64,000 nucleotides of DNA, taken from the NCBI GenBank assembly GCA_900168235.1, contig FUZG01000016.1:1-64000 (forward strand). The letters are read 5' to 3'. Under the pieces are notes generated by a model, which ran no database searches, was not told where the DNA came from, and was given only the letters and a program-made list of their open reading frames with translations. The position numbers and the translations under genes are program-made. This document shows positions 1-13,423 of this stretch, in pieces (within the stretch, counting starts at the first letter, position 1; every line of letters begins with the position of its first letter). The DNA is from Lachnospiraceae bacterium. Its GTDB lineage: Bacteria > Bacillota > Clostridia > Lachnospirales > Lachnospiraceae.

Positions 1-1
1 A

Positions 2-45
2 TACAACTTATACCGATAAAATAATTATGCCGATATTCACTGAAA
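2..45 (+). repeat. RIT left terminal inverted repeat
   Basis: The reverse complement matches 3378-3421 at 43 of 44 positions. It holds the ATGCCGATAT core, which recurs inverted at about 75-84, so each end of the element carries its own inverted pair. That is a plausible core site for tyrosine recombinases. Confidence 0.9.
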
Positions 46-64
46 ACGTTGAACTTCACTTGGA

Positions 65-85
65 ATTCAGAAAAATATCGGCATA
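65..85 (+). repeat. RIT inner (subterminal) inverted repeat, left copy
   Basis: This 21-bp sequence is an exact reverse complement of 3338-3358. It ends in ATATCGGCAT, the inverted form of the core found in the outer repeat 20-30 bp away. It overlaps the end of the last recombinase gene by no more than the spacing to the stop codon at 89. Confidence 0.85.
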
Positions 86-88
86 GTT

Positions 89-1120
89 TTATAGCCTGTA
101 TAGCTGCTTCATAATGGATTTGTTTTTCCAAATCTTTTCTTCATTACCAGATGGATTGGCCTTTTCTATTGATTCTGCAAGAGTTTTTAAGGTTGCAAAT
201 GCATAGAATCCTGTTGTGGTCGATACGCTCTCATGGCCTAGTAGCTGTTGGATGTATGATAGCGGGCAACCTGCCTGATACAAGTCCATAGCTCTTGTTT
301 TCCTCATCATGTGGAAGTGAACTTTTTCCGGCATCATCACTTTCTTTCTGGAAATATCAGCATATTTTTTTAGAACATTTTGAATCGCATCTTCAGAAAG
401 GGCATGTATTACACCGTGAGTGGTCGTATAAAACAAAGGATTATCCACTCTTTTATCTTCGTGAAATTCCTTGAGATAGTTGTATAAATGTCGGGTAGTC
501 TTATTCATTAAGGGGATGTTTCTATATTTCTGTCCTTTCCCCAAAACTGTCACATATGGCACTTCTGCGTCAAGATGGAGTGATGACACTTTTAAGCTTA
601 TCAGTTCGCTTACACGCAGGGCTGCATCATATCCTATTATTAGGATCATTCGATTTCTTCGTCCAATCCTGGCATCTTCTGATGGAGCCGATATTAATTC
701 TTTTAGCTGAGCTTTTTCAAAGTATTCAATTTCATGCTCCGTCACAGAAAGTCCTTTTATTGCTTTGGAGTTAACATAGATTGCTGTTATATCCACTGAT
801 TCATCTGCAGCATAAGATAGAAGTGCGCGTATTGCAGTGATTCTTAAATTGCAGGTCTTAGGACTAAGCTTCTGAATGTCCTTCATATATACAAGATAAT
901 CTTTAAGATTATTCTTATTAAAGTCCTTATAACAAATGTCTTTGCGTTTTATTAATTTTTCAGCTTCAAGATAGTCTATGTAAGAGTTCAGCGATCTCCT
1001 GTATGTCTCAATTGTATTGTTGCTTTTCTGACGTATTGTAGGTAATTCTTTATTTAAAAAATCCGTTGCGTTATTCCAGAAAAACGCACTATCAGTATCT
1101 GCTGTTCTATTCTTGATCAT
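89..1120 (-). CDS. Tyrosine recombinase, third gene of RIT element (RitC-like)
   Basis: A 343-residue site-specific recombinase of the phage integrase family, which cuts and rejoins DNA through a tyrosine. The N-terminal half resembles a SAM-like core-binding domain (about residues 15-110). The catalytic part shows the first arginine in DAALRVSELI, the HMMRKTRAMD box, the LLGHESV box and a nucleophile tyrosine in TGFYAFAT. The start codon at 1120 has a GGAGGTG ribosome site inside the preceding gene, and the two genes overlap by 14 nt, so they are probably translationally coupled. It is the last of three recombinases that should act together on the element's ends. Family assignment is firm; the RitC label rests on its position. 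Confidence 0.88.
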   Translation of the reverse strand: MIKNRTADTDSAFFWNNATDFLNKELPTIRQKSNNTIETYRRSLNSYIDYLEAEKLIKRKDICYKDFNKNNLKDYLVYMKDIQKLSPKTCNLRITAIRALLSYAADESVDITAIYVNSKAIKGLSVTEHEIEYFEKAQLKELISAPSEDARIGRRNRMILIIGYDAALRVSELISLKVSSLHLDAEVPYVTVLGKGQKYRNIPLMNKTTRHLYNYLKEFHEDKRVDNPLFYTTTHGVIHALSEDAIQNVLKKYADISRKKVMMPEKVHFHMMRKTRAMDLYQAGCPLSYIQQLLGHESVSTTTGFYAFATLKTLAESIEKANPSGNEEKIWKNKSIMKQLYRL

Positions 1121-2069
1121 TATCAGTCACCTCCGGTAATAAGTCTTCAAAAAAGGATGATTTTTCAATGATTTCTCGGTATATCTCAGGAACCAGATGA
1201 AAATAGTAAAGAGTGCTTTCAATGTCCTGATGTCCCATATAACGCATGAGATATGGAAGCATGGCATTTACATCTTTTCCTTTTTTTAGCCATCGGTTCA
1301 TATTTGCGTAGGCGAAATGATGTCGGAAATCATACGCTCTAATACTTACTCCATTTCCCCGTTTCTCTGGGAATGCTGTGTACCATATCTTGAGAAAAGT
1401 TTTTTCTACAGATCCGGAACTATATGGGGAATCTCCTCTTGATGGAAAGAAGTACACTCGGTCTGGGAGCAATCTATTAATCGATTCGTTATAAGAATCA
1501 AGATAATGAGATAATTCATCAGAAATAAAAATGCGCCTGCTTTTAGGACCTTTAGACTGCAGAATGTCGATATAGTTATGATTCAACACCACATTTTCAC
1601 ACTTAAGTGTACGCGCTTCTTTACAGCGGAGGCCGCAACAGTACATAAGTCTGTACATTGCTGGGAAAACTATATTTCTTTTTGGTACATGACAATCATA
1701 TGGCATACTATCACAAGCCATGAAAAATCCAGATATTTCTGCTTCGGTAAACAGATATGGCTGAACAGGTGTCGGTAATGGAACCTTTTTGTAGGGGATG
1801 ATATATGCATCTGTATACCCAATACTGATGAGATACCTTGAAAACTCCCGAAGAAATGCTGCTAGATTATACAAAGTGCCCGGGGTATGTGAATGTTCCT
1901 TCAAGAATGAGTTTATGGATGTCTTGCTTGGGACATTTTCATCAGGAAAGTTGGCAGAAGTATACTCTACATATTTCATAAGATGGTATTCTGCTGATAC
2001 GTAAACATAACCATTATGTCTTTTATAGTTTACAAAATCGTCTATTAGCTCAGTTAATGATTTATTCAT
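1107..2069 (-). CDS. Tyrosine recombinase, second gene of RIT element (RitB-like)
   Basis: A 320-residue tyrosine recombinase. An N-terminal DNA-binding domain (about 1-110) is followed by the catalytic domain with CCGLRCKEAR (catalytic arginine), YDFRHHFAYA (His-x-x-Arg-type box), YMGHQDIEST and the tyrosine in TLYYFHLV. It starts within the end of the upstream recombinase gene (8-nt overlap) behind an AGGAGGTG ribosome site. Length and position match the middle member of RIT trios. It contains no frameshift and keeps all catalytic motifs. Confidence 0.88.
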   Translation of the reverse strand: MNKSLTELIDDFVNYKRHNGYVYVSAEYHLMKYVEYTSANFPDENVPSKTSINSFLKEHSHTPGTLYNLAAFLREFSRYLISIGYTDAYIIPYKKVPLPTPVQPYLFTEAEISGFFMACDSMPYDCHVPKRNIVFPAMYRLMYCCGLRCKEARTLKCENVVLNHNYIDILQSKGPKSRRIFISDELSHYLDSYNESINRLLPDRVYFFPSRGDSPYSSGSVEKTFLKIWYTAFPEKRGNGVSIRAYDFRHHFAYANMNRWLKKGKDVNAMLPYLMRYMGHQDIESTLYYFHLVPEIYREIIEKSSFFEDLLPEVTDNDQE

Positions 2070-3294
2070 GGCTTACACCTCCTGGAAGGGGGAGCGTGCA
2101 GGATGCCATGATCTTGTCATCTGTGGAAAGGTAAACAGAAACTATATTTGGATCATGATGCCCTAAAACTGCTGAGATATTGCCCATAGTTACTTCGGAT
2201 CTTAGCATCATAGAAGCTGCGTTATGTCTGGTTGTCCTACTTCCAGTACTTCTTGCAGCATCAGATATGCCAGCCAGCTTTTCCATCTTCTGGAGCACTA
2301 CTCGGATAGAGGAACCCTCACCCTCAAGACGTGAAAATGGTGCAAGTGCCCTGACAAAAAGATATTTAGATTTGCAATCAGGCCGTTCGCTTAGTACATA
2401 ATCCGCTATAGCATTTCCATACGATTTGCGGAGTGGTAGGCTTATTACATGCCCAGTCTTCTGTTGTTTTATATAGATTATCTCTTTGCTCCAATCGATA
2501 TCTGACAGCTTTATATTGCATGCATCCACTGCTCTTAGCCCTGTTTCTAAAAGAAGCAGACATATAGCCATATCACGCTTCGTCATACAGTTATCATTCA
2601 ATACTTTATTGATAGAATCTTTGTCAGGTTCGCTGTATATTTCAATGATTTTTCGTTCTCTGGGAAGATGTGATGGGAGCTCCATCGTAAGATTTTTTAT
2701 ACCTGGATAAAGCGACAGAAATCTTTTAAGTCCTGATAACCCGCTAGAAATTGTTGTTGGTTTGAAATAACCATGATCATAAAGATGCAGTATAAAGTCG
2801 CATATATCGCCGGAAACTAATTCTTCAACGGTTGAATACGACTTTTCTTCGCAATAAAGCAGAAGATATGCAACAATACGTTTGTATGTGCATATGGTAT
2901 TAGGCTGTATTTCATCATCTACTAATAACCGAATGTATTTGTCTAATTCAGTGCGGAATCTTTCAGATTTTATCCTGTTGGCAACAGCATTCCCAGGTTT
3001 TCTGGAAGTATCTACGTCACCATTTTCAATGAAAGACTTGATCAGGTTTACAACGCGGATTCTTTGCCGCTGTTTTAAAACTGAAAATTCACCAGTATAT
3101 ACATTATTACAGTCTTTCAGATATTCACTGAATAGCTTATCAGTGGGCTCTTGGATATCTAAGCTTTGCGCCAACTTATTAAGTACATTAAATTTTCGCC
3201 TATATCGGCGAATAGTTTCTTCGCTATACTCTTTTTCTCTCAATGACTCCAAAGTTTTTCGGAGTATTTCCTGGATTTTAGTTTCATTATGCAT
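2062..3294 (-). CDS. Tyrosine recombinase, first gene of RIT element (RitA-like)
   Basis: A 410-residue tyrosine recombinase, the longest of the trio. Two N-terminal helical regions precede a catalytic domain with TGLRAVDACN (first arginine), a lysine in the beta-hairpin IKQQKTGHV, the RTTRHNAASM box, LGHHDPN and a nucleophile tyrosine in SVYLSTDD. The AAGGAGGT ribosome site lies 8 bases before the start. The gene begins only about 45 bp inside the inner repeat of the right end, so its promoter must overlap the element's recombination sites. This could couple expression to excision or integration. Confidence 0.9.
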   Translation of the reverse strand: MHNETKIQEILRKTLESLREKEYSEETIRRYRRKFNVLNKLAQSLDIQEPTDKLFSEYLKDCNNVYTGEFSVLKQRQRIRVVNLIKSFIENGDVDTSRKPGNAVANRIKSERFRTELDKYIRLLVDDEIQPNTICTYKRIVAYLLLYCEEKSYSTVEELVSGDICDFILHLYDHGYFKPTTISSGLSGLKRFLSLYPGIKNLTMELPSHLPRERKIIEIYSEPDKDSINKVLNDNCMTKRDMAICLLLLETGLRAVDACNIKLSDIDWSKEIIYIKQQKTGHVISLPLRKSYGNAIADYVLSERPDCKSKYLFVRALAPFSRLEGEGSSIRVVLQKMEKLAGISDAARSTGSRTTRHNAASMMLRSEVTMGNISAVLGHHDPNIVSVYLSTDDKIMASCTLPLPGGVSHE

Positions 3295-3337
3295 AGAAAT
3301 ATACCTCCTTAAGGCAAGTATATATCATGCAAAAATT

Positions 3338-3358
3338 TATGCCGATATTTTTCTGAAT
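3338..3358 (-). repeat. RIT inner (subterminal) inverted repeat, right copy
   Basis: Exact 21-bp inverted partner of 65-85. It lies between the right terminal repeat and the ribosome site of the first recombinase gene, so it may also be part of that gene's promoter region. Confidence 0.85.
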
Positions 3359-3377
3359 GAGTAGTAATCATCAGTAG

Positions 3378-3421
3378 TTTCAGTAAATATCGGCATAATT
3401 ATTTTATCGGTATAAGTTGTA
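3378..3421 (-). repeat. RIT right terminal inverted repeat
   Basis: Inverted partner of 2-45 with a single mismatch. Sequence identity between the two ends stops at 3421, which marks the outer border of the element. IS256-like sequence follows directly. Confidence 0.9.
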
Positions 3422-3439
3422 CTATAACGATATCGTCAT

Positions 3440-3646
3440 AATACAACAAATGCCATAGAAAGCCTGAACTCTACTTATCGCAAGCTTAATCGTCAGCGTA
3501 GCGTATTTCCAAGTGATCAGGCACTGCTAAAAGCGCTGTATCTTTCAACTTTTGAGGCTACAAAAAAATGGACAATGCCCCTTCGTAACTGGGGAAAAGT
3601 ATATGGAGAACTTGCCATTATGTACGATGGGAGGCTTCCAGAGTGA
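3440..3646 (+). pseudogene. Truncated IS256-family transposase, C-terminal fragment
   Basis: Reading through to the TGA at 3644-3646 gives about 68 residues with TTNAIESLNS, LNRQRSVFPS and KKWTMPLRNWG, which are hallmarks of the C-terminal end of IS256/Mutator transposases. There is no start codon or ribosome site in place, and an in-frame TAA lies just upstream, so it is not expressed as a working enzyme. The catalytic DDE residues would be in the missing portion. Confidence 0.85.
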
Positions 3647-3725
3647 TACCAGATTCACTGTTTTTCGGGCAGTGCTTGGACTGCCCGTTATTGACATGCC
3701 TTTCTTGATGACTTATATATAAAAT

Positions 3726-3756
3726 ATCAGGACTACTTTTCAAAAGCAGTCCTGAT
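3726..3756. terminator. Hairpin in IS256 3' region
   Basis: A 9-bp perfect stem (3726-3734 with 3748-3756) around a 13-nt loop sits between the transposase stop and the IS end. There is no clear T-run on either strand, so termination is only possible. It could equally be a structural feature of the IS end. Confidence 0.4.
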
Positions 3757-3814
3757 CACATATCAACCTCATAGGAAGTCCTATTTACAGAAAAATCTTC
3801 ACACGCTCAAGAAA

Positions 3815-3859
3815 TAAAGACAGCTGCTATTGGAGTGAGATACAAAGCAGCTGTCTTTA
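3815..3859. terminator. Terminator-like hairpin downstream of the ADP-ribosylglycohydrolase gene
   Basis: A 14-bp perfect stem (3815-3828 with 3846-3859) separates the minus-strand ADP-ribosylglycohydrolase unit from the IS256 remnant. Read on the minus strand it ends in TCTTTATTTCTT, a moderate T-run. It likely ends the minus-strand transcript from about 4790. Confidence 0.6.
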
Positions 3860-3901
3860 TACAATTGCTTCTTGGATTTCATCGCTGTGGTAATTACTCA
3901 T
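3857..3901 (-). CDS. Tiny open frame with strong ribosome site, probably a cut-off gene
   Basis: Fourteen codons (MSNYHSDEIQEAIV) follow a full AAGGAGGT ribosome site and begin 17 bp after the stop of the ADP-ribosylglycohydrolase gene. Its stop codon lies inside the terminator hairpin. It has no recognisable function. It could be the 5' end of a third cistron whose remainder was lost next to the IS256 remnant, or a short peptide. The ribosome site is the only positive evidence. Confidence 0.25.
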   Translation of the reverse strand: MSNYHSDEIQEAIV

Positions 3902-3918
3902 GATTAAACCTCCTTAAT

Positions 3919-4704
3919 TTAACGTTGTAATATCTCATACAAGTAATCATCCAAAAATTCGTCGATAATAAAGTCTCCATTAATACTTTTGAATCCGCCA
4001 TAGAATTCTTCTGCGACACCTCCTGCAATTGCACCGAATGTGTCACTATCGCATGGCAGACTGAATATATTTCTTATAAATGACTCATAATCAATACTTT
4101 CATAAAAACATCTCATTGCAGCTGGAACAGAACCCTGGCAACTAACATCCCATTTATATCTCGAGCGCATTTCTTCAAGTGAATAACCTATGCTGTACTC
4201 ATATTCACTTACGGGATACTCTTTCAACACATAATCATATATTTCCTGCTTGTCTTTACCATGCTTCGCCATCCATATACAGGTGGAAGTCACAACCGCA
4301 CCTTTTATTCCTTCCGGATGATTATGAGAAACGGCGGCAACTTCTGCAGCTACCTTTTGCATATCATCATAATCATCAATTGCTTCACCTATATATGATG
4401 TTCTCATAGCAGAACCATTACCCCAACTGTTATAAGGTAAATGATCATCGGATAATATCCATCTACGAAATGAACGACCAAATCCGCATCTTGGATACTT
4501 ACGCCCTACCTCAACCATCGTTTCTACAATATCCTTTTTTTCTGTAATTGCCTTTTTAACAGCCAGAGTCATTACAGTATCATCTGTAAATCCAATCGGT
4601 CTGTTAGAAATCAGAGGGCAATTTACCCAATCCAGATTTACAGGTCGTTTGAACTCATATTGTGATCCTAAAATATCTCCTAAAACTGCACCTTTTATTG
4701 CCAT
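3919..4704 (-). CDS. ADP-ribosylglycohydrolase family protein (DraG/ARH type)
   Basis: A 261-residue protein predicted to cleave ADP-ribose from modified proteins, nucleic acids or small molecules using bound Mg or Mn. Visible family motifs are GAVLGDILGSQYE (5-17), FTDDTVMT (39-46), WGNGSAMR (94-101), SHNHPEG (126-132) and, near the C-terminus, DSDTFGAIAGG, which together supply the metal ligands. I chose the ATG at 4704 because GAAAGGA lies just upstream; an in-frame extension to 4827 has no ribosome site and would run back through the promoter. It is transcribed divergently from the XRE-dynamin gene, and both promoters share the same operator-like site. Its leader RNA carries a 17-bp hairpin. 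The substrate is unknown. Removal of an ADP-ribose mark linked to the neighbouring GTPase is an inference. Confidence 0.85.
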   Translation of the reverse strand: MAIKGAVLGDILGSQYEFKRPVNLDWVNCPLISNRPIGFTDDTVMTLAVKKAITEKKDIVETMVEVGRKYPRCGFGRSFRRWILSDDHLPYNSWGNGSAMRTSYIGEAIDDYDDMQKVAAEVAAVSHNHPEGIKGAVVTSTCIWMAKHGKDKQEIYDYVLKEYPVSEYEYSIGYSLEEMRSRYKWDVSCQGSVPAAMRCFYESIDYESFIRNIFSLPCDSDTFGAIAGGVAEEFYGGFKSINGDFIIDEFLDDYLYEILQR

Positions 4705-4734
4705 ATGATGATCCTTTCTTTTTATGACTATCGT

Positions 4735-4785
4735 GTTTATTTGAAATCTACTGCTTTCAAATAAAGTTGTAGATTTCAAATAAAC
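4735..4785 (-). promoter_or_regulatory. 17-bp perfect inverted repeat in the 5' leader of the ADP-ribosylglycohydrolase gene
   Basis: Arms 4735-4751 and 4769-4785 are perfect reverse complements around a 17-nt loop. The loop contains a third copy of the TTTCAAATAAA unit. The structure lies downstream of the predicted transcription start and about 20 bp before the ribosome site, so it would form in the mRNA leader. It could be a protein-binding operator, an RNA hairpin controlling expression, or an attenuator lacking a T-run. Confidence 0.6.
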
Positions 4786-4798
4786 GGGGGACATAAGT

Positions 4799-4827
4799 AA
4801 AATAGTATACTGTATACAAAAATTCAA
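4799..4827 (-). promoter_or_regulatory. Promoter of ADP-ribosylglycohydrolase gene with GTATAC operator in the spacer
   Basis: On the minus strand TTGAAT (4827-4822) and TATTTT (4804-4799) are exactly 17 bp apart. The spacer contains GTATACAGTATAC (4817-4805), two GTATAC hexamers separated by one base. The same arrangement occurs in the facing promoter at 4978-5006. A protein bound here would cover the polymerase site, so repression is the simplest reading. Confidence 0.7.
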
Positions 4828-4977
4828 GCGCTTTATATGATTAATTTGTACTTTATATAATACATTTTGATAAATTAAAATAATTATTGCTATGTAAAAT
4901 ATTTTTTACATAACAATAATATATTTGTGAGTTTTAAGATGTGTTAGATAAAATACAAATAAATAAGACAAGACCTC

Positions 4978-5006
4978 TTGAAATTTGGTATACAGTATAC
5001 TATATT
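4978..5006 (+). promoter_or_regulatory. Promoter of XRE-dynamin gene with GTATAC operator in the spacer
   Basis: TTGAAA (4978-4983) and TATATT (5001-5006) are separated by 17 bp. The spacer ends in GTATACAGTATAC (4988-5000), identical in sequence to the site in the divergent promoter when each is read in its own transcription direction. The encoded protein begins with an HTH domain, so autoregulation through this site is plausible but inferred. Confidence 0.72.
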
Positions 5007-5047
5007 AACAATATCATTTGACATTTTTAGATGAAGGAGATCGTGCT

Positions 5048-7318
5048 ATGAGTAAGAATATAATCAAAAAGGTTATAGAGCTAACTGGTTTGTCTATTGA
5101 CAAACTTGCTTCTATTCTAGGTGTTTCACGCCAAACCATTAGCAACTATGAGAAAAATCCTGATCAGATTTCATTGAAACAGTTGATGAACCTTTCTTCT
5201 GAAACAGGAATTTCAGTTGAAAAATTGCTTGAACCCGAAAAAAGAATAATGGGACCGACAATAAGAACAGTCTATGGAGATTATTCAAATAAAATAAAAC
5301 GCATTATTGACTCTGCAGTTTCATTTCGAAATGAAATGAATGACATTCAGATTGAAAGTGAAATTTGTTCGTGCAAAGAGGCAAAAAAGCAGGCTGCAAG
5401 AGAGTTTGATAATATTGCTAAAATTGCATCAATAAAAGGAAGAAAACCAAAGATATGTGCATTTGGACCTTCTGATACGGGTAAATCTACTCTGATAAAT
5501 TACCTTTTGAGAAATGATGATAAATCTGATGAAGATGTTGTTCCAACTGGATATAGCCCGCTTACATCAGTACCCACTTTTTTAAAACATAAGGATGAAA
5601 AGCCTGCTTTTTTGAATAATCCAAGTGATAATGCGATTGTACTTGGAAGAAAAAAGGGAGAAAAAAATGAACCTATTCGACATGAATCTCTTTCTGAGGA
5701 AGAGTGGAAAGAGCATATTATAAGGATAGGTAATTATAAATCCGTATTAAGAGAGTTTGGTACACGAGACGGGGAATACTATAAAAATTCTTATTGGGAT
5801 ATTGATGAAATAGTGATATATGCAGATCGCGATTTATTAAGAGAAATCACTCTTGTAGATATTCCAGGATTTGGATCGGGTGAAAAAAAAGATGATGTAG
5901 GATTAACAATGGATGCTAGTGCATTCGATATTATCTTTTTCTTAAGTACAGTCAATGCTTATCTTAGAGGCGATGAACTTGCAGCTTTAGGTAACATTTT
6001 AAGAATGAGAGAAGATTTATCCACTTTTTATCTTTTAGGAACACATGCAAATGTTATCGGTGATCCTAATCAATTGAAGAGCAGGATACATTCAGGATGT
6101 GAACTTATTGTAAGTGGTATGAGCGAAAATGAGAAAAAACGTCTCAATATCAGCGAAAATGATTTTGAAGCATTGGAGAAACGTTGTTTCGCTTTTGATA
6201 TTAATTCGAAAAAATATTGCAATGAATTGAATGAAGTCTTAGAATACGAAATTCCTAAAATAGTTAATGAAAGATTAAATAAGGCAGTTTTGGAAGTGAC
6301 CTCTGCTACTAAAGAGTATACCGAAAGATATGAGGAGCTTCTTAAAAATATCGATGGAAGGCGTATTTCCAAAAGTCCGGAAGAAATCAAATCACAGAAA
6401 AAAGAGAGGGAGAAAGCATTACAAGAAGCATTGAAAAGGATTTCTGATTCAAAATGCAAGCTTGAGAAGTCAGTCAAAGATAAAAAGGACTATTGCTCTG
6501 ATAAGATCAAGGATAAATATAGAGACATCATTAATAATCATCATATAGAACATCTGATTGATAAAAAGGGAATAAAAAACAAAAAGTCTGATATAAATAG
6601 GCTTACAAATTATCTAAGCAATGAGCTGAATGACAGTTTTGTAGAAATCATACGCAGGGAAAGCAATCATTTTACAAGTGAATTAAATTATGAACTTCAG
6701 CATAATCAGAAAAATATCGAACAGAATATTAAAAAATTGAACTTCTCTTCATATTTGAATGATTTTGATGTTGAAAAAGCCTTTGTTGCAGGTTTAGCTG
6801 GAGTTTCAACTTATGGTGCCTTAGCATTTTGGGCATCAGTGGTTGCTGGCGGAAGCAATCTTGGAGCATATATACTGGTTGCAAAAGTTGTCTCTGCATT
6901 AAGTGCCATCGGCATTTCTGTTGGTGGTACTGCAGCAGCAGCAGCATGGGTCGCATCGATTGGTGGTCCGGTTACTATAGGCATAGCGCTAGCTGCTATT
7001 GCAGCAATTGCCACATGGGGAATTTTTACCGGTACGTGGAAAAGCAGACTGGCAAAGAGAATAGTTGATGAATATGATGACAAACATGTATGCGGTAAAT
7101 TCCGTAAGGAATCGGATAAATATTGGAATGATACCACTGTGGCGCTCGATGAATGCTTTGACTCGTTGGCAAATGAAGTAAAAACTTTATACTTTTCAGA
7201 AACCCAGATTGATGGAATGGATATTGAAGATTATGTAAAAATGACGACCATTCTGCAAATGATATATTCTAAGTGCTTAACTGGATATAGAAAAATTTAT
7301 ACCGAGTCATGCAGCTAA
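5048..7318 (+). CDS. XRE-type HTH domain fused to a dynamin-like GTPase
   Basis: A 756-residue protein. Residues about 4-62 form a Cro/CI-like helix-turn-helix (LSIDKLASILGVSRQTISNY). A dynamin-type GTPase domain follows, with P-loop GPSDTGKST (140-148), a candidate switch threonine in VVPTGYSPLT, DIPG (271-274) and a THAN motif (332-335) where N/TKxD is usual. Residues about 430-570 are charged and look coiled-coil; about 577-663 are hydrophobic and rich in Gly and Ala, like the membrane-inserting paddle regions of bacterial dynamin-like proteins; a soluble tail follows. The start at 5048 has GAAGGAG 8 bases upstream; an in-frame ATG at 5018 lacks one. Likely roles are membrane remodelling or stress/phage response with DNA-linked control of its own expression. 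The HTH fusion is the unusual part. Domain calls are firm; function is inferred. Confidence 0.85.
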   Translation: MSKNIIKKVIELTGLSIDKLASILGVSRQTISNYEKNPDQISLKQLMNLSSETGISVEKLLEPEKRIMGPTIRTVYGDYSNKIKRIIDSAVSFRNEMNDIQIESEICSCKEAKKQAAREFDNIAKIASIKGRKPKICAFGPSDTGKSTLINYLLRNDDKSDEDVVPTGYSPLTSVPTFLKHKDEKPAFLNNPSDNAIVLGRKKGEKNEPIRHESLSEEEWKEHIIRIGNYKSVLREFGTRDGEYYKNSYWDIDEIVIYADRDLLREITLVDIPGFGSGEKKDDVGLTMDASAFDIIFFLSTVNAYLRGDELAALGNILRMREDLSTFYLLGTHANVIGDPNQLKSRIHSGCELIVSGMSENEKKRLNISENDFEALEKRCFAFDINSKKYCNELNEVLEYEIPKIVNERLNKAVLEVTSATKEYTERYEELLKNIDGRRISKSPEEIKSQKKEREKALQEALKRISDSKCKLEKSVKDKKDYCSDKIKDKYRDIINNHHIEHLIDKKGIKNKKSDINRLTNYLSNELNDSFVEIIRRESNHFTSELNYELQHNQKNIEQNIKKLNFSSYLNDFDVEKAFVAGLAGVSTYGALAFWASVVAGGSNLGAYILVAKVVSALSAIGISVGGTAAAAAWVASIGGPVTIGIALAAIAAIATWGIFTGTWKSRLAKRIVDEYDDKHVCGKFRKESDKYWNDTTVALDECFDSLANEVKTLYFSETQIDGMDIEDYVKMTTILQMIYSKCLTGYRKIYTESCS

Positions 7319-7353
7319 TTTCTTTATCTCCTTTCATAATATTATTTTAAGTT

Positions 7354-7404
7354 TCACATTTTGATTCCCCTGCTTACAATGTAAGTAGGGGAATCAAAAT
7401 GTGA
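7354..7404. repeat. Long hairpin: 24-bp arms, 3-nt loop
   Basis: Arms 7354-7377 and 7381-7404 pair at 23 of 24 positions around AAT. It starts 35 bp after the XRE-dynamin stop codon and would end or stabilise that transcript. It lacks a clear T-run and is far longer than the other terminators in the window. A mobile-element end or a binding site are alternatives. Confidence 0.75.
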
Positions 7405-7420
7405 TATCATTGTTGAAAAT

Positions 7421-7567
7421 GTGTCTTTGTTCGATATAGTCAGAGCTTTTACGATTAACACCCAGAAATCTATGAAAGCATATGCTTTTAATGAGGAAAC
7501 AGAGTATCGTAAACAATTAACGCAATATCTGTCTCGTATTAAAAGTGTTAGGAACGATGATTTTTGA
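7421..7567 (+). pseudogene. Short coding-like remnant, unknown
   Basis: Forty-eight codons from a possible GTG read VSLFDIVRAF through KSVRNDDF, with ordinary amino-acid composition and a stop at 7565. No ribosome site precedes it, and its frame is closed by a stop inside the long hairpin. I do not recognise a family. It is probably the tail of a gene lost by rearrangement, though chance cannot be excluded. Confidence 0.25.
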
Positions 7568-7628
7568 CGTTCTTGATCAGTAGAAATGTTAATAATATCT
7601 TATACAAAAAAGTTTTTTACATGTAATT

Positions 7629-7680
7629 TAATAGTTAAATAATAGTAAATAACATGTAATTTACTATTATTTAACTATTA
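7629..7680. repeat. AT-only hairpin: 22-bp perfect arms, 8-nt loop
   Basis: Arms 7629-7650 and 7659-7680 are exact reverse complements, made almost only of A and T. A direct repeat ACATGTAATTTA also occurs at 7619-7630 and 7652-7663, overlapping the arms. It lies in a gene-free stretch. It may be a small non-autonomous element end or a protein-binding palindrome. Confidence 0.75.
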
Positions 7681-7720
7681 AGAATATATAAATTAAAGCA
7701 ACACCACGTCTGTTCTTGTC

Positions 7721-7813
7721 TGATGCGTATTGAGAAAAGCCAGATACAGATGGCAATAGACAGTAAAATTCATCCTGTGTCTGTCGCATCATCTTCAGTA
7801 TTGAGAAAAGCCA
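7721..7813. repeat. Paired 16-bp direct repeats with an imperfect stem between them
   Basis: GTATTGAGAAAAGCCA occurs exactly at 7728-7743 and 7798-7813 (70 bp apart). TGATGCG (7721-7727) is inverted at 7785-7791, and CAGATACAGATG (7741-7752) is nearly inverted at 7771-7783. The region could fold into a structured RNA or be the relic of a duplication. No open frame spans it. Confidence 0.5.
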
Positions 7814-7931
7814 AATAAAGATAAGTCTTCATAAACTTGTATGGTAGAGCCACTTGGATGGTTAGAAGATTATTTGTTCATGTGAAGGAATCTTGCGGTT
7901 TGAATGGGATTGACCATCGGTTAAAATAGAG

Positions 7932-8120
7932 ATGATTGATGCGAAGAATGATCTGTTTGCTGAGAATTCCTGGTGTTTTAGAAATTTTTTGGTTAGGGCA
8001 AAATACAATAATATTGATAAAGTCATATATTCGACAACGGAGTACTTGGAAAAGTTTTTGAGATATTTGCTCATTGAAGAGAAGCTTGAGCTTAATAACA
8101 ATCGAGAGATACACATCTAA
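7932..8120 (+). CDS. Short hypothetical open frame
   Basis: Sixty-two codons starting MIDAKNDLFAENSW and ending directly before a strong terminator hairpin. The only upstream support is a weak AATAGAG. The composition is not obviously wrong for a protein, but no family is recognised. It may be a remnant inside a decayed stretch. The terminator immediately after it slightly favours a transcript reaching this point. Confidence 0.3.
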   Translation: MIDAKNDLFAENSWCFRNFLVRAKYNNIDKVIYSTTEYLEKFLRYLLIEEKLELNNNREIHI

Positions 8121-8121
8121 A

Positions 8122-8157
8122 AAACAGCCACACCGGAATGATACCGATGTGGCTGTT
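8122..8157. terminator. Bidirectional rho-independent terminator
   Basis: Arms 8122-8136 and 8143-8157 pair at 14 of 15 positions, with A-run on the left and TTT on the right. It lies 18 bp beyond the stop of the minus-strand gene at 8176-8484 and also closes anything reading from the left. Confidence 0.8.
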
Positions 8158-8175
8158 TCCTATGTATTGGATAAT

Positions 8176-8484
8176 TTAGGCGATCTCCGGTTCGTCACGA
8201 AGGTAGAGCGCATACTCTTTAATGGTACGCTCGATAGTAGCCATCTGCTTCTTATGAGAAGCCTTAAAATCACGGTTCGCTTTCAGGTCACGAAGAAGCT
8301 GGACTATCTGTCGCGGATCATCAATGGTATAAATCTCGCCGGAAAGAATATTTGATTCTTGGAAGAACATGTTTGTCTCTGCAAGTGCGATAAACATCTC
8401 TTCAACTTCTCGGAAATTGTACTTCTGTACGAGGCTCTGAGTGAATCTGTTCTTTCTGTCCTGTGCGATCTCTGTAATGCTCAT
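8176..8484 (-). CDS. Hypothetical protein, 102 residues
   Basis: A small, charged, probably all-helical cytoplasmic protein beginning MSITEIAQDRKNRF, with no signal peptide, membrane segment or recognised motif. The start is supported by GAAAGGA 5 bases before the ATG, and a strong terminator follows the stop. It stands alone between the accessory region and ilvE. I do not recognise the family. Confidence 0.6.
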   Translation of the reverse strand: MSITEIAQDRKNRFTQSLVQKYNFREVEEMFIALAETNMFFQESNILSGEIYTIDDPRQIVQLLRDLKANRDFKASHKKQMATIERTIKEYALYLRDEPEIA

Positions 8485-8513
8485 GTTGTCCTTTCTGCCG
8501 GAGAAAAACCGAC

Positions 8514-8539
8514 GTTTCCGCGTCCCTTACCACGGAAAC
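8514..8539 (-). promoter_or_regulatory. Leader hairpin before the 102-residue gene
   Basis: On the minus strand a 7-bp stem (GTTTCCG with CGGAAAC) with a 12-nt loop is followed within 5 nt by GGTTTTTC and then, about 20 nt on, by the ribosome site. This resembles a weak intrinsic terminator or attenuator in the leader. It is suggestive only. The surrounding gap 8485-8913 otherwise holds just the ilvE promoter. Confidence 0.3.
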
Positions 8540-8773
8540 TAGTGTATTCTTCTGAAGGACCCCTTGTATGTGTTTTTAATACTCCAAATGCGGTCTGTTT
8601 TATAATGCACGAGAGCCGCAAAAAACTCCCTAAGTTTACTATTTTTTCAGGATGATGTCAAAGTATCGGAGAGGTTAAAACATTTGAAACAAGTGCATTA
8701 TGAGTTGATCTATTTTAATCACATCACCTGGTTAAAAAAGAGCAGAAAATTTGAAATATGTTAATCAACTGCC

Positions 8774-8802
8774 TTGTTTTTTAAATTTTAACGCATTACA
8801 AT
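8774..8802 (+). promoter_or_regulatory. Probable ilvE promoter
   Basis: TTGTTT (8774-8779) and TACAAT (8797-8802) lie 17 bp apart, about 110 bp before the ilvE start. I see no T-box antiterminator or other known leucine/valine-responsive leader in the leader sequence. Confidence 0.5.
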
Positions 8803-8913
8803 ATTAAAGAATCACGTTTTAAGTGTACAAAAATACGTGTATTCAATGACAAGAGCGCTGCTGTACAGACTATTTTTGAGGGCAGCAAAAAAGAAAGAAA
8901 GGAAGTATTCACT

Positions 8914-9945
8914 ATGGCAACTAAGAATATCGACTGGGCGAACATTGGGTTCGGGTATATGAAAACTGAGTACCGTTACGTCTCAAACTTCAAAGACGGA
9001 AAGTGGGATGACGGTGTCATTACCACCGACGACAAGGTCGTCCTCAGTGAGTGTGCCGGTGTACTTCAGTACGCGCAGACCTGTTTTGAAGGTCTGAAGG
9101 CTTATAGAACAGAGGATGGAAAGGTTGTTTGTTTCCGTCCGGACCTCAACGCACAGCGTATGATCGATTCAGCAGAGAGACTTGAGATGCCGGTATTCCC
9201 GGAGGATCGTTTCATCAAGGCTGTTGAGGAAGTTGTAAAGGCAAATCTCGACTGGGTTCCGCCTTATGGAACAGGTGCAACACTTTATATCCGTCCGTAT
9301 ATGTTTGGTTCAAACCCTGTTATCGGAGTTAAGCCGGCTGACGAGTATCAGTTCCGCATATTTGTTACTCCTGTTGGACCGTACTTCAAGGGCGGCGCAA
9401 AGCCTATCGTATTAAAGATCTCTGACTTTGACCGTGCAGCACCGAGAGGAACAGGCCATGTTAAGGCTGGTCTTAACTATGCAATGAGCCTTCACGCTAT
9501 CGTACAGGCTCACGAGGAAGGCTTTGCTGAGAATATATATCTTGATCCTGCTACACGCACAAAGATCGAGGAGACAGGCGGAGCAAATCTTATCTTCGTT
9601 GATAAGGAAGGAAATCTCGTTATTCCGAAGTCTGATTCCATCCTTCCGTCCATCACAAGACGTTCTCTGCACATCGTTGCTGAGAAGTATCTTGGTGCTA
9701 AGGTTACAGAGAGAGAGGTTCTTCTCTCTGAGGTAGAGTCAGGTGAGTTCGTTGAGTGTGGTCTCTGCGGAACAGCAGCAGTTATCAGCCCTGTAGGAAA
9801 GATCAACGACCATGGCAAGGAAATCTGCTTCGCAAGCGGCATGGACGAGATGGGGCCTGTTACCAAGAAGCTCTACGACACTCTTACAGGAATCCAGATG
9901 GGACGCATCGAAGGTCCTGAAGGCTGGGTACATGTAATCGAGTAA
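8914..9945 (+). CDS. ilvE: Branched-chain amino acid aminotransferase
   Basis: A 343-residue fold-type IV PLP enzyme that transfers amino groups between glutamate and the keto acids of leucine, isoleucine and valine. The PLP-binding lysine is in GTGHVKAGLNYA (K184). The substrate- and cofactor-binding motifs EETGGANLIFV and CGLCGTAAVISPVG match the long (type II) branch of the family rather than the short E. coli type. AAAGGAAG precedes the ATG. The gene is monocistronic, closed by a terminator at 9998-10026. Confidence 0.93.
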   Translation: MATKNIDWANIGFGYMKTEYRYVSNFKDGKWDDGVITTDDKVVLSECAGVLQYAQTCFEGLKAYRTEDGKVVCFRPDLNAQRMIDSAERLEMPVFPEDRFIKAVEEVVKANLDWVPPYGTGATLYIRPYMFGSNPVIGVKPADEYQFRIFVTPVGPYFKGGAKPIVLKISDFDRAAPRGTGHVKAGLNYAMSLHAIVQAHEEGFAENIYLDPATRTKIEETGGANLIFVDKEGNLVIPKSDSILPSITRRSLHIVAEKYLGAKVTEREVLLSEVESGEFVECGLCGTAAVISPVGKINDHGKEICFASGMDEMGPVTKKLYDTLTGIQMGRIEGPEGWVHVIE

Positions 9946-9997
9946 AGATAAAACGCGATACACAACTAAATCACGATTATCTTCCTGAAATAAAAGA

Positions 9998-10026
9998 GGG
10001 ACATCACATTTCGGTGTGATGTTCCC
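9998..10026 (+). terminator. ilvE terminator
   Basis: A stem of about 11 bp (GGGACATCACA with TGTGATGTTCCC) around a short loop is followed by CTTGTGTTTT. It lies about 50 bp after the ilvE stop. Confidence 0.75.
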
Positions 10027-10203
10027 CTTGTGTTTTCGGAATAGTGGTATTCTTTTTAATGATTTGAGTATAAAACAGAATTTTGTACATACGATTTCTG
10101 TGGATTAAAATGTGTAGAAAACCATTTCCACAGCTCTGACAGCGAGATTGAATTGTGGATACAGAAAACAGTATACAGGTAAAATATCTAAACAATTACA
10201 AAA

Positions 10204-10235
10204 GCCGTCATTCTGAAGTGCATCAGAATGACGGC
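10204..10235 (-). terminator. pyrBI terminator
   Basis: A 13-bp perfect stem (10204-10216 with 10223-10235) and 6-nt loop lies 17 bp after the pyrI stop. On the minus strand it runs into CTTTTG. It ends the pyrBI transcript. Confidence 0.8.
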
Positions 10236-10252
10236 AAAATTATTATAATTGT

Positions 10253-10723
10253 TTATTTATTAGAATCCTGATTTACCCATTCAGTCTCGCAATACTTGCA
10301 TCTGTAAGTACCGCGATATGCATCAGTCAGATAGAAAACATGATCCAGTTCCTGCTCGATAGAAGTGATGCAGCGGGGATTGTGGCACTTGATCACATTA
10401 GTGATGGTCTTCGGGAGTTCCAGATGAGGGCGCTCAATGATCTCGCCATCCTTGATGATATCAACAGTAGCTGTGTGATCAAGAAAAGCAATGGTATCAA
10501 GATCATACTCGCGAAGAGGCATCTCAACCTTGATCATATCTTTTTTACCCATCTTCATGCTGGACGCATTAGTAATGATCGCAACACTGCAGTTCAGCTT
10601 ATCGAGTCCCAGGTCATTGTACAGCTTCATAGCCTTGCCCGGATGAATATGGTCGATAACAAAACCTTCTTCGATCTTACCAACATTCAATTTATACTGT
10701 TTACGCTTTTCAGCTTCAGACAT
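10253..10723 (-). CDS. pyrI: Aspartate carbamoyltransferase regulatory chain
   Basis: A 156-residue regulatory subunit of aspartate carbamoyltransferase, which binds nucleotides and modulates PyrB. The four zinc-binding cysteines are visible at C113, C118, C142 and C145 (CHNPRC and CKYC), in the domain that contacts the catalytic chain. The ATG at 10723 follows GGAGG; a 5' extension to 10747 has no ribosome site. It lies 31 bp after pyrB in the same operon. Having PyrI means the enzyme is of the regulated type, unlike the Bacillus enzyme. Confidence 0.92.
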   Translation of the reverse strand: MSEAEKRKQYKLNVGKIEEGFVIDHIHPGKAMKLYNDLGLDKLNCSVAIITNASSMKMGKKDMIKVEMPLREYDLDTIAFLDHTATVDIIKDGEIIERPHLELPKTITNVIKCHNPRCITSIEQELDHVFYLTDAYRGTYRCKYCETEWVNQDSNK

Positions 10724-10754
10724 AATATCCTCCGTTAAGAAAGTCAAAATCGGG

Positions 10755-11678
10755 TTAATCCACTTTGATATTAAGCAGTGTAAGGATCAGCGCCATGCGG
10801 ACGTACATGCCGTACTTAACCTGCTTAAAATAAACCGCTCTCGGGTCATCATCGATCTCTGTTGCGATCTCGTTTACACGAGGCAGAGGGTGGAGAACGA
10901 GCATTTCAGAACTTGCAAGCTCCATCTTCTTTTTATCAAGGATATAGAAATCCTTCAAACGTACATAATCTTCCTCGTTAAAGAAGCGTTCCTTCTGTAC
11001 ACGAGTCATGTAAAGGATGTCAAGAGACGGCAGAACATCTTCAAGCTTCGTAACCTCACGAAAAGCAATGTTGTTCTGGATCAGGAGATCATCACGGATG
11101 TAACTTGGAAGTTTAAGTTCTTTCGGGGAGATAAAAACAAATTTAACATTGGCATAACGTACCAATGCACGAATAAGAGAATGAACAGTGCGTCCAAATT
11201 TAAGATCGCCGCACATACCGATCGTAAGATTGTCGAGATGACCCTTAAGAGAACGGATCGTAAGAAGATCAGTGAAAGTCTGGGTAGGATGCTGATGACC
11301 ACCGTCACCGGCGTTAATAACAGGAATAGTAGATTTGGAAGCTGCTACGAGAGGAGCACCTTCTTTCGGATGACGCATCGCTGCGATATCTGCAAAGCAG
11401 GAAGCCACGCGGATCGTATCTGCAACGGTCTCGCCCTTCATGGCTGACGAAGAATCTGCGGAATGAAAACCAAGACATTGACCGCCAAGTCTCAGCATTG
11501 CGGCCTCAAAAGAAAGTCGTGTTCGTGTGCTCGGTTCATAAAATAAAGTTGCCAGGATCTTTCCATCGCATGCATGCGCATACTTTGCCGGATCGCGGAT
11601 GATATCATCGGCGAGATCCATGAGAGAATCCAGCTCTTCAACAGAGAAGTCCAGGGGACTCAGGATACTTCTGACCAT
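10755..11678 (-). CDS. pyrB: Aspartate carbamoyltransferase catalytic chain
   Basis: A 307-residue enzyme that joins carbamoyl phosphate and aspartate in the first committed step of pyrimidine synthesis. STRTRLSFE (50-58) is the carbamoyl-phosphate site and HPTQTFTDL lies in the active site; HPLPRVNEI is near the C-terminus. AGGAGG precedes the chosen ATG at 11678; an extension to 11750 would run into the promoter. It is followed by pyrI, so the holoenzyme is made from one operon. No PyrR attenuator was seen in the 70-bp leader. Confidence 0.95.
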
Positions 11679-11721
11679 GTTTCCTCCTATTTTTGAGAAA
11701 ATGTTTATATTGCCGCCGAAT

Positions 11722-11750
11722 ATTATAGTGCGGAGCGCTTCAAAATACAA
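11722..11750 (-). promoter_or_regulatory. pyrBI promoter
   Basis: On the minus strand TTGTAT (11750-11745) and TATAAT (11727-11722) are 17 bp apart. Initiation would give a leader of roughly 40 nt, too short for a classical attenuator. Confidence 0.7.
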
Positions 11751-11852
11751 GGAAAAACTTAGACGAAGTGATTAGACAGCGTGTCGAATAATCTATGAAA
11801 ACGGACAATATGCTTATATTTTGTTTTATATAAAAAAACATATTATTAATTA

Positions 11853-11881
11853 TTGACAGTGCGATTGTATACAAGTGTTAT
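11853..11881 (+). promoter_or_regulatory. Upstream promoter of small operon, with GTATAC in spacer
   Basis: TTGACA (11853-11858) and TGTTAT (11876-11881) are 17 bp apart. The spacer contains TTGTATACAA (11867-11876 region), related to the site in the ADP-ribosylglycohydrolase and XRE-dynamin promoters. Confidence 0.6.
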
Positions 11882-11910
11882 TGACACATGTATACAATAT
11901 ACAATATTAA
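11881..11910 (+). promoter_or_regulatory. Second, tandem promoter of small operon, with GTATAC in spacer
   Basis: TTGACA (11881-11886) is followed after 18 bp by TATTAA (11905-11910). The spacer contains TGTATACAATATACAA. Together with the preceding promoter this gives two tandem TTGACA boxes, each with a GTATAC-type site downstream, 28 bp apart. Confidence 0.55.
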
Positions 11911-11945
11911 TTAAACCTTCGCTCTATCTACAAGGAGGTAGGAAA

Positions 11946-12059
11946 ATGAGGAAAAAGGATGTTGTGAGAAAAATAATCGGAGTCATTGTAGCATTAAGGA
12001 TAAATGATCTTACACTTGATGGACAGAAAGGGATGAGATCGATCGGTTATGATGGATGA
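11946..12059 (+). CDS. Small hypothetical protein, 37 residues
   Basis: Starts MRKKDVVRKIIGVIVAL behind an AAGGAGGT ribosome site 8 bases upstream. It is basic at the N-terminus with a short hydrophobic stretch (about 10-18), too short to call a membrane segment. The stop overlaps the next gene by 11 nt, so the two are likely translationally coupled. Tandem promoters with GTATAC sites drive the pair. No family recognised; a regulator-plus-partner or toxin-antitoxin-like arrangement is possible but unproven. Confidence 0.55.
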   Translation: MRKKDVVRKIIGVIVALRINDLTLDGQKGMRSIGYDG

Positions 12060-12309
12060 TACCAATATGATCGTCAATGATAAAATTTGTGAGCTGACAA
12101 GCAGTGATGAATATATTAATGCTCCGATAGATGAAAGGATCAGACTTGTAAACGCTTTGTTTGATGCTCTTCAAAAAGAGGCTCATATTATTGAGTACAG
12201 CTATAATGCAGGAGAAATGCTATATTCGTTTACTTACAAAAGCGGGCTTTCAGGTGGCGTTTTTATCAAAGATTTTTCAACCCCGTCCGGTAGGATTCCG
12301 ATGAATTAA
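12049..12309 (+). CDS. Small hypothetical protein, 86 residues
   Basis: An acidic protein starting MMDDTNMIVNDKICEL, with no signal peptide or membrane segment. It starts inside the preceding 37-codon gene and ends directly at a strong terminator. Family unknown. Its first helix-rich half (about 15-50) and beta-prone second half suggest a small folded domain. Confidence 0.6.
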   Translation: MMDDTNMIVNDKICELTSSDEYINAPIDERIRLVNALFDALQKEAHIIEYSYNAGEMLYSFTYKSGLSGGVFIKDFSTPSGRIPMN

Positions 12310-12355
12310 AAAAGGAGTGTCTGTGGTGATATGTATCACTGCAGACACTCCTTTT
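12309..12355. terminator. Bidirectional rho-independent terminator
   Basis: AAAAGGAGTGTCTG and CAGACACTCCTTTT pair perfectly over 14 bp, with A and T tracts on each side. It serves the small operon on the plus strand and the convergent DUF5050 gene. Confidence 0.88.
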
Positions 12356-12403
12356 AACATGGCTTTTTGATATGATCTGAAGTTGATTTTTGAAAAAATG
12401 AGG

Positions 12404-13423
12404 TTACTTCTTAGTAGGACGTATCGCAAAGATCTGCGGATTAACAGGCCCGTTCACAAGCTGGTGGTATACAAGAGAAGAGCTTTCATAAGGTCTGAAA
12501 TAAACATAAACGGAAGAAGAATTAATCTCCGTGAAGTTACCCGGCATGATGATCTCATTGCTGCTGCCGTCTGTTCTCATGCGCTTCATTGCAGGCTCGG
12601 TGTTGGAATTTTTCTGGTAATAGATCCAGGTGTCATTAACAACATTGAAACAGTCAACACGGTCGGTGGTCAGAACTTCCTCAGTTCCTCCGCTTAAAGG
12701 TCTCCTGCACAGTGAGAAGCTGTTTACGTTATCAAGATAATAAACATAACTTCCCGAAACTACAGGGAAAGAAATATTTCCTTCAAAAACAACGCTTTTT
12801 GCACCGTTCAGCACATTATAAGAATGAAGACTGTGATCATTTTTTTGTCCTGCGTAGTAGATCACGTTGTTCACCGCGCAAACAGGATAAACAGGTTCGT
12901 CCGTGAGCTGGACTTCCTTAGTGTTGTCGATGTGCTTTTTATAAAGAGTGAGTGCGTAAACATCATCAAAGTACTGGTAATACACGTCACTGTTTATGAG
13001 CACGACAGATGTAACAGGTGCCTTCTGGAGGCAGACTGTCTTTTTTCCGGCGAGAGTGGAACGATATATCCCGAGATTTCGGGCGAGGAATGCAAGTGCA
13101 GCATCCTTGTTTTTATCATAATTCTGGTAATAGTAGATGTATTTTCCGGCAATGTTAATATAGGCAACGCTTTCATCGATGATCTTCTTAGGCTCAGATT
13201 CATCGGGCTTCATACGATAAAGCGCACCGCCGTCACTGTAATTATGGAAGTAGACATATCCGTCATGTTCGCAGACCATACCCATATTATTGAGGTTTCC
13301 TGCGGTGTTGCCCACAGTGCCTGTCGGATTTTCCGGAATGATACCGCTTAGATACCGCGTTACCCCAAGCGCGATAATAAGCGCAAAAAGAACAACAAGA
13401 AACAGGATGTTACGTTTATTCAT
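12404..13423 (-). CDS. Membrane-anchored DUF5050 protein (beta-propeller-like repeats)
   Basis: A 339-residue protein with one N-terminal membrane segment (about 5-24) and an extracytoplasmic remainder. The rest is built of repeats of the form YxxxYxDxxLY(R/K)MxxDG, with frequent YYY/YYQ strands, the pattern of DUF5050 domains that are thought to form propeller blades. The ATG at 13423 follows GAGGGGGA; the upstream frame to 13453 lacks support. It is transcribed alone and convergent with the small operon. A sensing or binding role outside the cell is inferred. Confidence 0.75.
   Translation of the reverse strand: MNKRNILFLVVLFALIIALGVTRYLSGIIPENPTGTVGNTAGNLNNMGMVCEHDGYVYFHNYSDGGALYRMKPDESEPKKIIDESVAYINIAGKYIYYYQNYDKNKDAALAFLARNLGIYRSTLAGKKTVCLQKAPVTSVVLINSDVYYQYFDDVYALTLYKKHIDNTKEVQLTDEPVYPVCAVNNVIYYAGQKNDHSLHSYNVLNGAKSVVFEGNISFPVVSGSYVYYLDNVNSFSLCRRPLSGGTEEVLTTDRVDCFNVVNDTWIYYQKNSNTEPAMKRMRTDGSSNEIIMPGNFTEINSSSVYVYFRPYESSSLVYHQLVNGPVNPQIFAIRPTKK

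Follow-up and report, generated by a model that had tools for sequence, protein, structure and literature searches.

An XRE-dynamin GTPase that probably regulates itself and a divergent draG-like gene in a Lachnospiraceae bacterium

Described systems closest to the locus

Bacterial dynamins have been studied as membrane machines. When phage infects Bacillus subtilis, its dynamin DynA is reported to leave the cytosol for the membrane, lysis is delayed and the population is protected (PMC8844932). Here we analysed a stretch of 64,000 nucleotides (nt) from a Lachnospiraceae bacterium (contig FUZG01000016.1), hereafter the window, in which two genes are transcribed apart: a draG-like gene for an ADP-ribosylglycohydrolase (ARG) and a gene for a dynamin-type GTPase that carries an XRE helix-turn-helix (HTH) domain, denoted XRE-dynamin. 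To judge from the sequence, the XRE-dynamin probably shuts off its own gene and the neighbouring draG. The XRE-dynamin family with operators of its own is a more interesting part of the result than the pair, and this DNA-binding branch, many members of which also have a palindrome in the promoter, suggests that some dynamins read out their own state as transcription.

LeoABC of enterotoxigenic Escherichia coli, DynA and BDLP have a Dynamin_N core, a helical trunk and a hydrophobic paddle-like stretch in common with the XRE-dynamin. What sets the XRE-dynamin apart from these proteins is the XRE DNA-binding domain at the N-terminus of the GTPase, together with a palindrome in the promoter of its own gene. 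An N-terminal 'helix-turn-helix' of LeoA was assigned to the neck domain, and 'DNA binding' is absent from the available text of that paper (PMC4159319). The three-gene layout of LeoABC, with a split dynamin and LeoA, was not seen at this locus, where the GTPase is one unbroken gene and no second dynamin was found among the five segment proteins scanned.

With regard to the hydrolase, the best precedent is that of ARG-centred conflict systems, which are predicted to undo viral ADP-ribosylation, and more than 42% of which have Nudix or WYL negative regulators (PMC9503650, section 3.8). In common with them, the locus has a hydrolase, no transferase recognised nearby and predicted negative regulation by an HTH protein. 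The regulators named there are of the Nudix and WYL types, often accompanied by phosphatases and chaperones, whereas here the regulator would be the XRE-dynamin and neither a phosphatase nor a chaperone was recognised adjacent to the pair. In place of such neighbours (Nudix or WYL, phosphatase, chaperone) we found recombinases, gene scraps and genes that look by eye like housekeeping genes. For the control of a DraG enzyme, the regulator would be of a new type. The DraT-DraG system has a DraG-type hydrolase in common with the locus, whereas no adjacent transferase was recognised here and the draG product does not reach the DraT-DraG equivalog TIGR02662 (38 bits compared to a cut-off of 337 bits). 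A genome-wide DRAT search gave no match, but no control genome responded either.

HipB and the controller proteins of restriction-modification systems, both of which turned up in our profile search of solved structures, combine an HTH with a palindromic operator in their own promoter, as the XRE-dynamin does; the HTH is a small separate protein there, whereas it lies within the GTPase in the XRE-dynamin. RptR of a defence island represses its own promoter, and the available text of the RptR paper mentions neither XRE nor dynamin. In the open-licence literature we found no paper on XRE-dynamins or on an XRE-dynamin with an ADP-ribosylglycohydrolase or a Tox-GHH nuclease, which fits the claim of an earlier, sequence-only reading of the window that no system of this composition has been described; a description elsewhere is possible.

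Promoters and products of the divergent genes

The features of the pair are as follows.

4805..4817, minus strand: operator copy 1, GTATACAGTATAC, within a 17-bp spacer
4988..5000, plus strand: operator copy 2, GTATACAGTATAC, within a 17-bp spacer
4799..4827, minus strand: candidate draG promoter TTGAAT-17-TATTTT, 8/12 to consensus by eye, under the promoter-scan cut-off
4978..5006, plus strand: candidate XRE-dynamin promoter TTGAAA-17-TATATT, 10/12 in the promoter scan
5048..7318, plus strand: XRE-dynamin GTPase, 756 amino acids, ATG at 5048 (HTH_3 E 3e-9, Dynamin_N E 2e-11)
5063..5227, plus strand: XRE HTH domain, residues 6-60, recognition helix SRQTISNYE (HTH_3 match)
5453..5983, plus strand: dynamin-type GTPase core, residues 136-312, P-loop GPSDTGKS and switch DIPG
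6788..7027, plus strand: candidate membrane paddle, about 80 hydrophobic Gly/Ala-rich residues, 581-660 (hydropathy, conserved positions)
3919..4704, minus strand: draG-like ADP-ribosylglycohydrolase, 261 amino acids, ATG at 4704 (PF03747 E 4.1e-28)

The sequence GTATACTGTATAC at 4805-4817 of the plus strand is GTATACAGTATAC when read on the minus strand, and GTATACAGTATAC stands at 4988-5000 on the plus strand. The candidate operator GTATACWGTATAC is thus present once within the 17-bp spacer of each divergent promoter. Because the 13-mer is near-palindromic, both strands were counted when matches with at most 2 mismatches were tallied in the window; there are 8 of them compared to 0.78 expected and a maximum of 4 in 100 shuffles. 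The likeness of the promoters exceeds the 13-mer, as they form the arms of a 31-nt inverted repeat (4798-4828 and 4977-5007, 90% complementary) that spans the -35, the operator and the -10. A promoter scan of the region returned 8 promoter-like sites (3.6 in shuffles), the draG promoter not being among them; at 8/12 and under the scan cut-off, the draG promoter call rests on its resemblance to the GTPase promoter. The duplication of the palindrome is a stronger point than its length. The window protein combines an XRE domain with a palindrome in its own promoter, as autoregulated XRE repressors do, and the footprint among relatives, described below, would imply binding and repression. Shared control of both genes is likely, and the HTH-GTPase is the best candidate for it.

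The GTPase matches PF00350 (E 1.6e-11, 44.9 bits compared to a cut-off of 27) and has the GPSDTGKS and DIPG motifs, whose key residues are conserved across the XRE-dynamin family, which places it among the bacterial dynamin-like proteins. The LeoBC and LeoA profiles of PADLOC match residues 404-691 and 445-679, respectively. Mean hydropathy is 1.2 to 2.0 over residues 581-660 (20-residue windows), and many positions of this stretch are conserved in the family. The LeoBC match and the hydrophobic stretch would correspond to the trunk and paddle of bacterial dynamins. The BDLP structure 2j68 turned up in the profile search of solved structures made with the family. The recognition-helix motif of the window protein, taken as its exact 7 residues, occurs once in its own genome.

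The draG product belongs to the DraG/ARH group by its PF03747 match and by its motifs: in an alignment to ARH3 structures, GD..G..(Y/F)E, FTDDT and CDSDT, which we take to be the metal ligands of ARH3 and DraG, are all in place. The longest draG open reading frame begins at TTG 4827. Since this start would place the promoter inside the gene, ATG 4704, which is preceded by AAAGGA, is the likely start. The main observations of the sequence-only reading on the two genes were thus confirmed: like divergent promoters with a 13-mer in their 17-bp spacers, an ADP-ribose-removing enzyme on the left (PF03747 E 4e-28, motifs kept) and, on the right, a GTPase with its own DNA-binding domain (HTH_3 and Dynamin_N matched). 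The nearest relative of the hydrolase in the phage and plasmid records searched (H33, 53.5% identity) is at MT835469.1:33842-34615; this record is a phage sequence of 176 kb from human faeces.

XRE-dynamin relatives and the competing explanations

Thirteen other XRE-dynamin loci were compared (L008-L016, L018, L096, L102 and L103), in stretches of unequal length, some of which are ended by record ends; L009/L012 and L016/L018 are close pairs. In the promoters of L014, L015, L016 and L018 we found the palindrome AATATGC-N6-GCATAA amid poorly alignable DNA, with a looser form in L008, and the same type was then found in L096, L102 and L010 (an Acinetobacter plasmid, N7). In strict form, TATGC-N5-7-GCATA, there are 9 copies in 8 of 9 loci, 76-133 nt upstream of the XRE-dynamin start, and 0 elsewhere in the 124,501 bases of the nine loci. 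The looser form [AT]ATGC-GCAT[AT] occurs at 13 places, 10 upstream and 3 elsewhere. L008 and L014 each have two copies exactly 30 bp apart, one of the L008 copies being of the looser form only. No TATGC palindrome was found in L009, L011, L012 or L013, and the 64-kb window has one of this type, at 31327 (N5), far from the pair. In the genome-wide search, three places with WATATGC-N6-GCATAW were found in each of G625 and G728, of which one per genome is at the XRE-dynamin; G681 and G710 have none, the G710 site beginning TTTATGC and so falling outside this form.

Eight loci (L008, L014, L015, L016, L018, L096, L102 and L103) form a tree clade with support 100/98. Seven of the eight have the palindrome, and those seven read RQD[YNS][IV]SR in the recognition helix; with the close pairs among the loci, they are nearer to five independent cases. 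The clade member that lacks the palindrome, L103, has the helix PLEKISR and a WYL regulator gene just upstream. This WYL-domain regulator (L103:7306-8316) lies directly upstream of the XRE-dynamin, as if the regulator had been replaced. Outside the clade, L010 (SQSQISR) has the TATGC palindrome and pairs with L013 on long branches of unsure placement. In the Vibrio phage locus L013 (DQRSVSR), promoter-like sequence is flanked by two copies of AGACA-N4-TGTCT that stand 60 nt from each other. Both the window protein and the Lactococcus protein have ISN in this helix; the palindrome in the promoter of the Lactococcus gene is 17 bp long and contains GTATA half-sites. The footprint upstream of their own genes suggests that the XRE-dynamin GTPases of these relatives regulate themselves, and on this footing the best candidate for binding GTATACWGTATAC is the window protein. 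Together with the helix motif found once in the genome, the relatives' palindromes lend indirect support to the earlier proposal of a joint operator with the HTH protein as its candidate regulator.

The family is sparse. A single-protein search (E 1e-10) found an XRE-dynamin in 1 of 299 genomes of the bacterial family, which is the window's own genome. With profile A4 (E 1e-20), matches were found in 2 of 391 genomes of the class, 4 of 398 of the phylum and 1 of 73 of one order, in samples that overlap and each include the own genome or one found before; one phylum match, G728, is apparently the Carboxydocella detected earlier. Ten plasmid records carry an XRE-dynamin (5 examined, L008-L012), as do 4 Vibrio phage records with equal scores (1 examined, L013). 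A collection of genome contigs gave 5 loci, of which one is again the Carboxydocella plasmid, and a viral contig collection gave no relative with A2, the window protein or A5 as query. Of the 6 plasmid and phage relatives scanned with Pfam, 5 have both HTH_3 and Dynamin_N, as does the window protein; the remaining one, the Vibrio phage protein, gave the GTPase at E 0.001 but no HTH, which was read from the alignment. In the Vibrio phage, a P2-like replication gene and the portal gene flank the XRE-dynamin gene, with small genes in between.

In L014, L015, L018, L102 and L103 the XRE-dynamin is followed by a gene of about 278 amino acids and then by a Tox-GHH nuclease gene (PF15636 was tested in L014 and L015; L018, L102 and L103 were assigned by blastp at 50-60% identity). 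A gene of about 126 amino acids comes next in L015, L018, L102 and L103 and was not found in L014, and L016 has flanking genes of the 278- and 126-residue types and no nuclease at E 1e-3. The XRE-dynamin, the 278-residue gene and Tox-GHH, with or without the 126-residue gene, make a candidate defence operon. The three downstream genes of L015 have no tblastn match in the window at E 1e-3. Among the neighbours run through PADLOC, L014 has a CBASS cyclase and a phospholipase effector next to it, L018 has a cyclase, and L016 has Thoeris ThsA with two ThsB. XRE-dynamins are accordingly a sparse, scattered family on plasmids, a P2-like phage and three defence-linked loci. The gene in L096 (G625, about 5888-8106) appears damaged near its end, with two matches in different frames and stops in the longer one.

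The reading that we favour takes the XRE-dynamin as a self-regulating accessory protein, probably one that serves phage defence or element stability, which represses its own gene and draG until its dynamin part is engaged; as a whole, we hold it to be about evenly balanced. The XRE domain would dimerise on GTATACWGTATAC in the promoter spacers and block polymerase. As a repressor in the spacer would exclude polymerase, the XRE-dynamin gene and draG would both be off or low at rest. Engagement of the dynamin part, for which GTP-driven assembly, membrane binding or protein loss may be the trigger, would lift the repression, and both genes would be expressed. The dynamin part is the natural switch: a membrane shift like that of DynA would presumably make the XRE-dynamin leave its operator. 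The dynamin part would then act at the membrane like other bacterial dynamins, and the DraG enzyme may strip ADP-ribose from proteins, for instance phage-made marks. From binding to joint action we infer these steps, and the defence function and any cooperation of the two genes are likewise presumed.

A narrower version, which we consider improbable, takes XRE-dynamins as membrane-titrated repressors, whose soluble form would hold the promoter off and would be pulled off the DNA by membrane assembly. If this is true, one protein would be sensor, switch and effector, and phage membrane damage would lead to transcription of the partner gene under the operator, DraG here and the Tox-GHH operon elsewhere. 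The family offers testable operators (TATGC-N6-GCATA and GTATACWGTATAC) and partner genes, and ties a GTPase switch to defence loci. The gain for the window itself is smaller, the ADP-ribose enzyme being seemingly a local passenger under the control of the GTPase.

Several results weigh against the self-regulating reading. The sequence GTATACWGTATAC itself is not footprinted in the relatives, and no GTATAC-N0-2-GTATAC was found in L009, L011, L012 or L013. The window protein is on a long branch of the tree and at most about 33% identical to any aligned relative. When the longest palindrome of a single promoter was tested, 8 of 10 loci did not exceed chance at the 5% level. A palindrome as long as that of the window promoter is not significant alone (247 of 500 shuffles equally good; 480 for L008, with L009 at 0 and L016 at 16 as exceptions), and the weight therefore lies on conservation and repetition. 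A rule of one palindrome for each helix type did not hold for L010 and L013; helix and palindrome are not one-to-one because L013 combines a VSR helix with a different palindrome. The exact 13-mer occurs at four further places in the genome (C10:9311, C11:118270, C15:412283 and C16:23842; L003-L006), no hydrolase was found at any of the 13 other XRE-dynamin loci in the stretch examined (tblastn E up to 1), and by eye the remainder of the window, on which PADLOC was not run, showed no defence gene. The structure model of the GTPase, with a mean predicted local distance difference test score (pLDDT) of 51, is too poor for use.

It is somewhat unlikely, though possible, that the two genes are chance neighbours, that is, accessory genes from different events whose operators are alike through a local inverted duplication of the promoter. 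Scraps, many inverted repeats and the recombinase trio around the pair would agree with this, as would a second, shortened draG start in the same genome (C24:172388-172657, L095:7389-7658), which is 73% identical over 90 residues and suggests that draG copies move; but -35, operator and -10 are all retained in each arm of the 31-nt likeness, a pattern that points to selection for control. The shortened copy is without the GTATAC site. It lies downstream of the RNase P RNA gene (L095:6641-6992, RF00010), at a distance of about 400 nt, and this stretch is a possible insertion spot for mobile genes.

A more doubtful explanation is that a chromosomal regulator binds GTATACWGTATAC, that both genes joined its host regulon, and that the XRE domain has another site or role. 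The sequence-only reading had pointed to the spacer motif as something to search for; six exact sites, including the window pair, were indeed found in the genome (0 in the reversed control), and they are not exclusive to the pair. With four more places, the operator is not private to the two genes, and there is either a small XRE-dynamin regulon or a host regulator on the same site. From about 0.17 sites per other family genome, the Poisson probability of four extra sites is about 1e-4 (size-scaled and post hoc). The four sites lie between likely genes, some being overlapped by short, spurious-looking frames, and three of them precede genes whose products are probably secreted (signal sequences by eye), one with a transglutaminase domain. 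Against a host regulator, the same-genus genome without an XRE-dynamin has no site, only the window copies lie, by eye, between both hexamers of a TTGAA-17-TAT promoter, and the relatives have palindromes upstream of their own XRE-dynamin gene. Counts alone can also mislead: the 34 places in 27 of 199 other family genomes are barely above the reversed control (25 in 24), and 7 of the 34 are in G157, all inside reading frames. With one mismatch and any middle base, there are 28 places compared to 15 for the reversed control. A GTATACWGTATAC regulon in G157 was rejected, as all 7 sites are within frames of at least 70 amino acids. In L004 the site continues into a further ATATAC repeat.

As to the conservation of the pair, 24 of the 120 family genomes searched have the hydrolase (E <= 1e-20), with 28 places in total, two of them in the own genome. 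At the other 26 places, in 23 genomes, there is no XRE-dynamin beside it (flanks of about 1.5 kb or less on each side), and by their handles these 23 genomes are within the 299 searched for XRE-dynamin. No operator site with at most 1 mismatch was found at the other draG copies (L065-L098) besides the own pair. A conserved two-gene system was therefore rejected: each gene is nearly always without the other in the sampled genomes, the outcome that the sequence-only reading had named as fatal to its idea of a two-gene system, which is left unsupported. The coupling to draG seems to be peculiar to this genome, with a draG copy put under the operator of the GTPase. A true functional pair, in which ADP-ribosylation counter-defence is joined to a dynamin switch and is too young or too rare to have been picked up, is quite unlikely: the shared operator layout, the divergent arrangement, the common low-GC segment and the negative HTH regulators of predicted ARG-centred conflict systems (PMC9503650, section 3.8) favour it, but the hydrolase is missing from all 13 other XRE-dynamin loci, the GTPase from the 26 hydrolase places, and the same-genus hydrolase of G079 (57% identical) instead has Macro-domain and vWA-like genes (vWA by eye) nearby.

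Genomic surroundings

Further features of the segment are given below.

89..3294, minus strand: three overlapping tyrosine recombinases (domain profiles), leftward context
4735..4785, minus strand: hairpin in the draG messenger RNA leader, between promoter and ribosome-binding site (inverted repeat of 23 nt, 91%)
7354..7404, no strand: 25-nt palindrome 3' of the GTPase gene (inverted-repeat scan), without a T-run

The GC content is 34.1% at 3330-8150, compared to 37.5% at 1-3330, 42.8% at 8150-16000 and 45.7% at 16000-64000. With the recombinase trio, which we take, following the earlier label, to be an RIT-type element, and with the gene scraps, this bears out the AT-rich mobile setting described before. 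The idea of a defence setting held in part: three relatives of the GTPase lie beside defence genes, whereas at this locus the genes to the right of the pair resemble housekeeping genes when read by eye, and the window starts at the contig start. In the stretch compared with the same-genus genome in order to locate the insertion site, nothing except an aminotransferase gene is common to both. Four Rfam matches on the segment, to plant and animal microRNA families, are all far under the gathering score and were dismissed as chance.

Beside the recombinase trio, at about 3440-3646, the translation of a fragment reads like the C-terminal end of a transposase, presumably of the IS256 type. Long inverted repeats with arms of 23-27 nt (91-96%) are found around both genes at 4735-4785, 7354-7404 and 7628-7681; the second of these may be a transcript end. 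The RNA fold of 4705-4798, which includes the draG leader hairpin, has an energy of -24.3 kcal/mol (z -5.9), and 0 of 200 shuffles were as stable.

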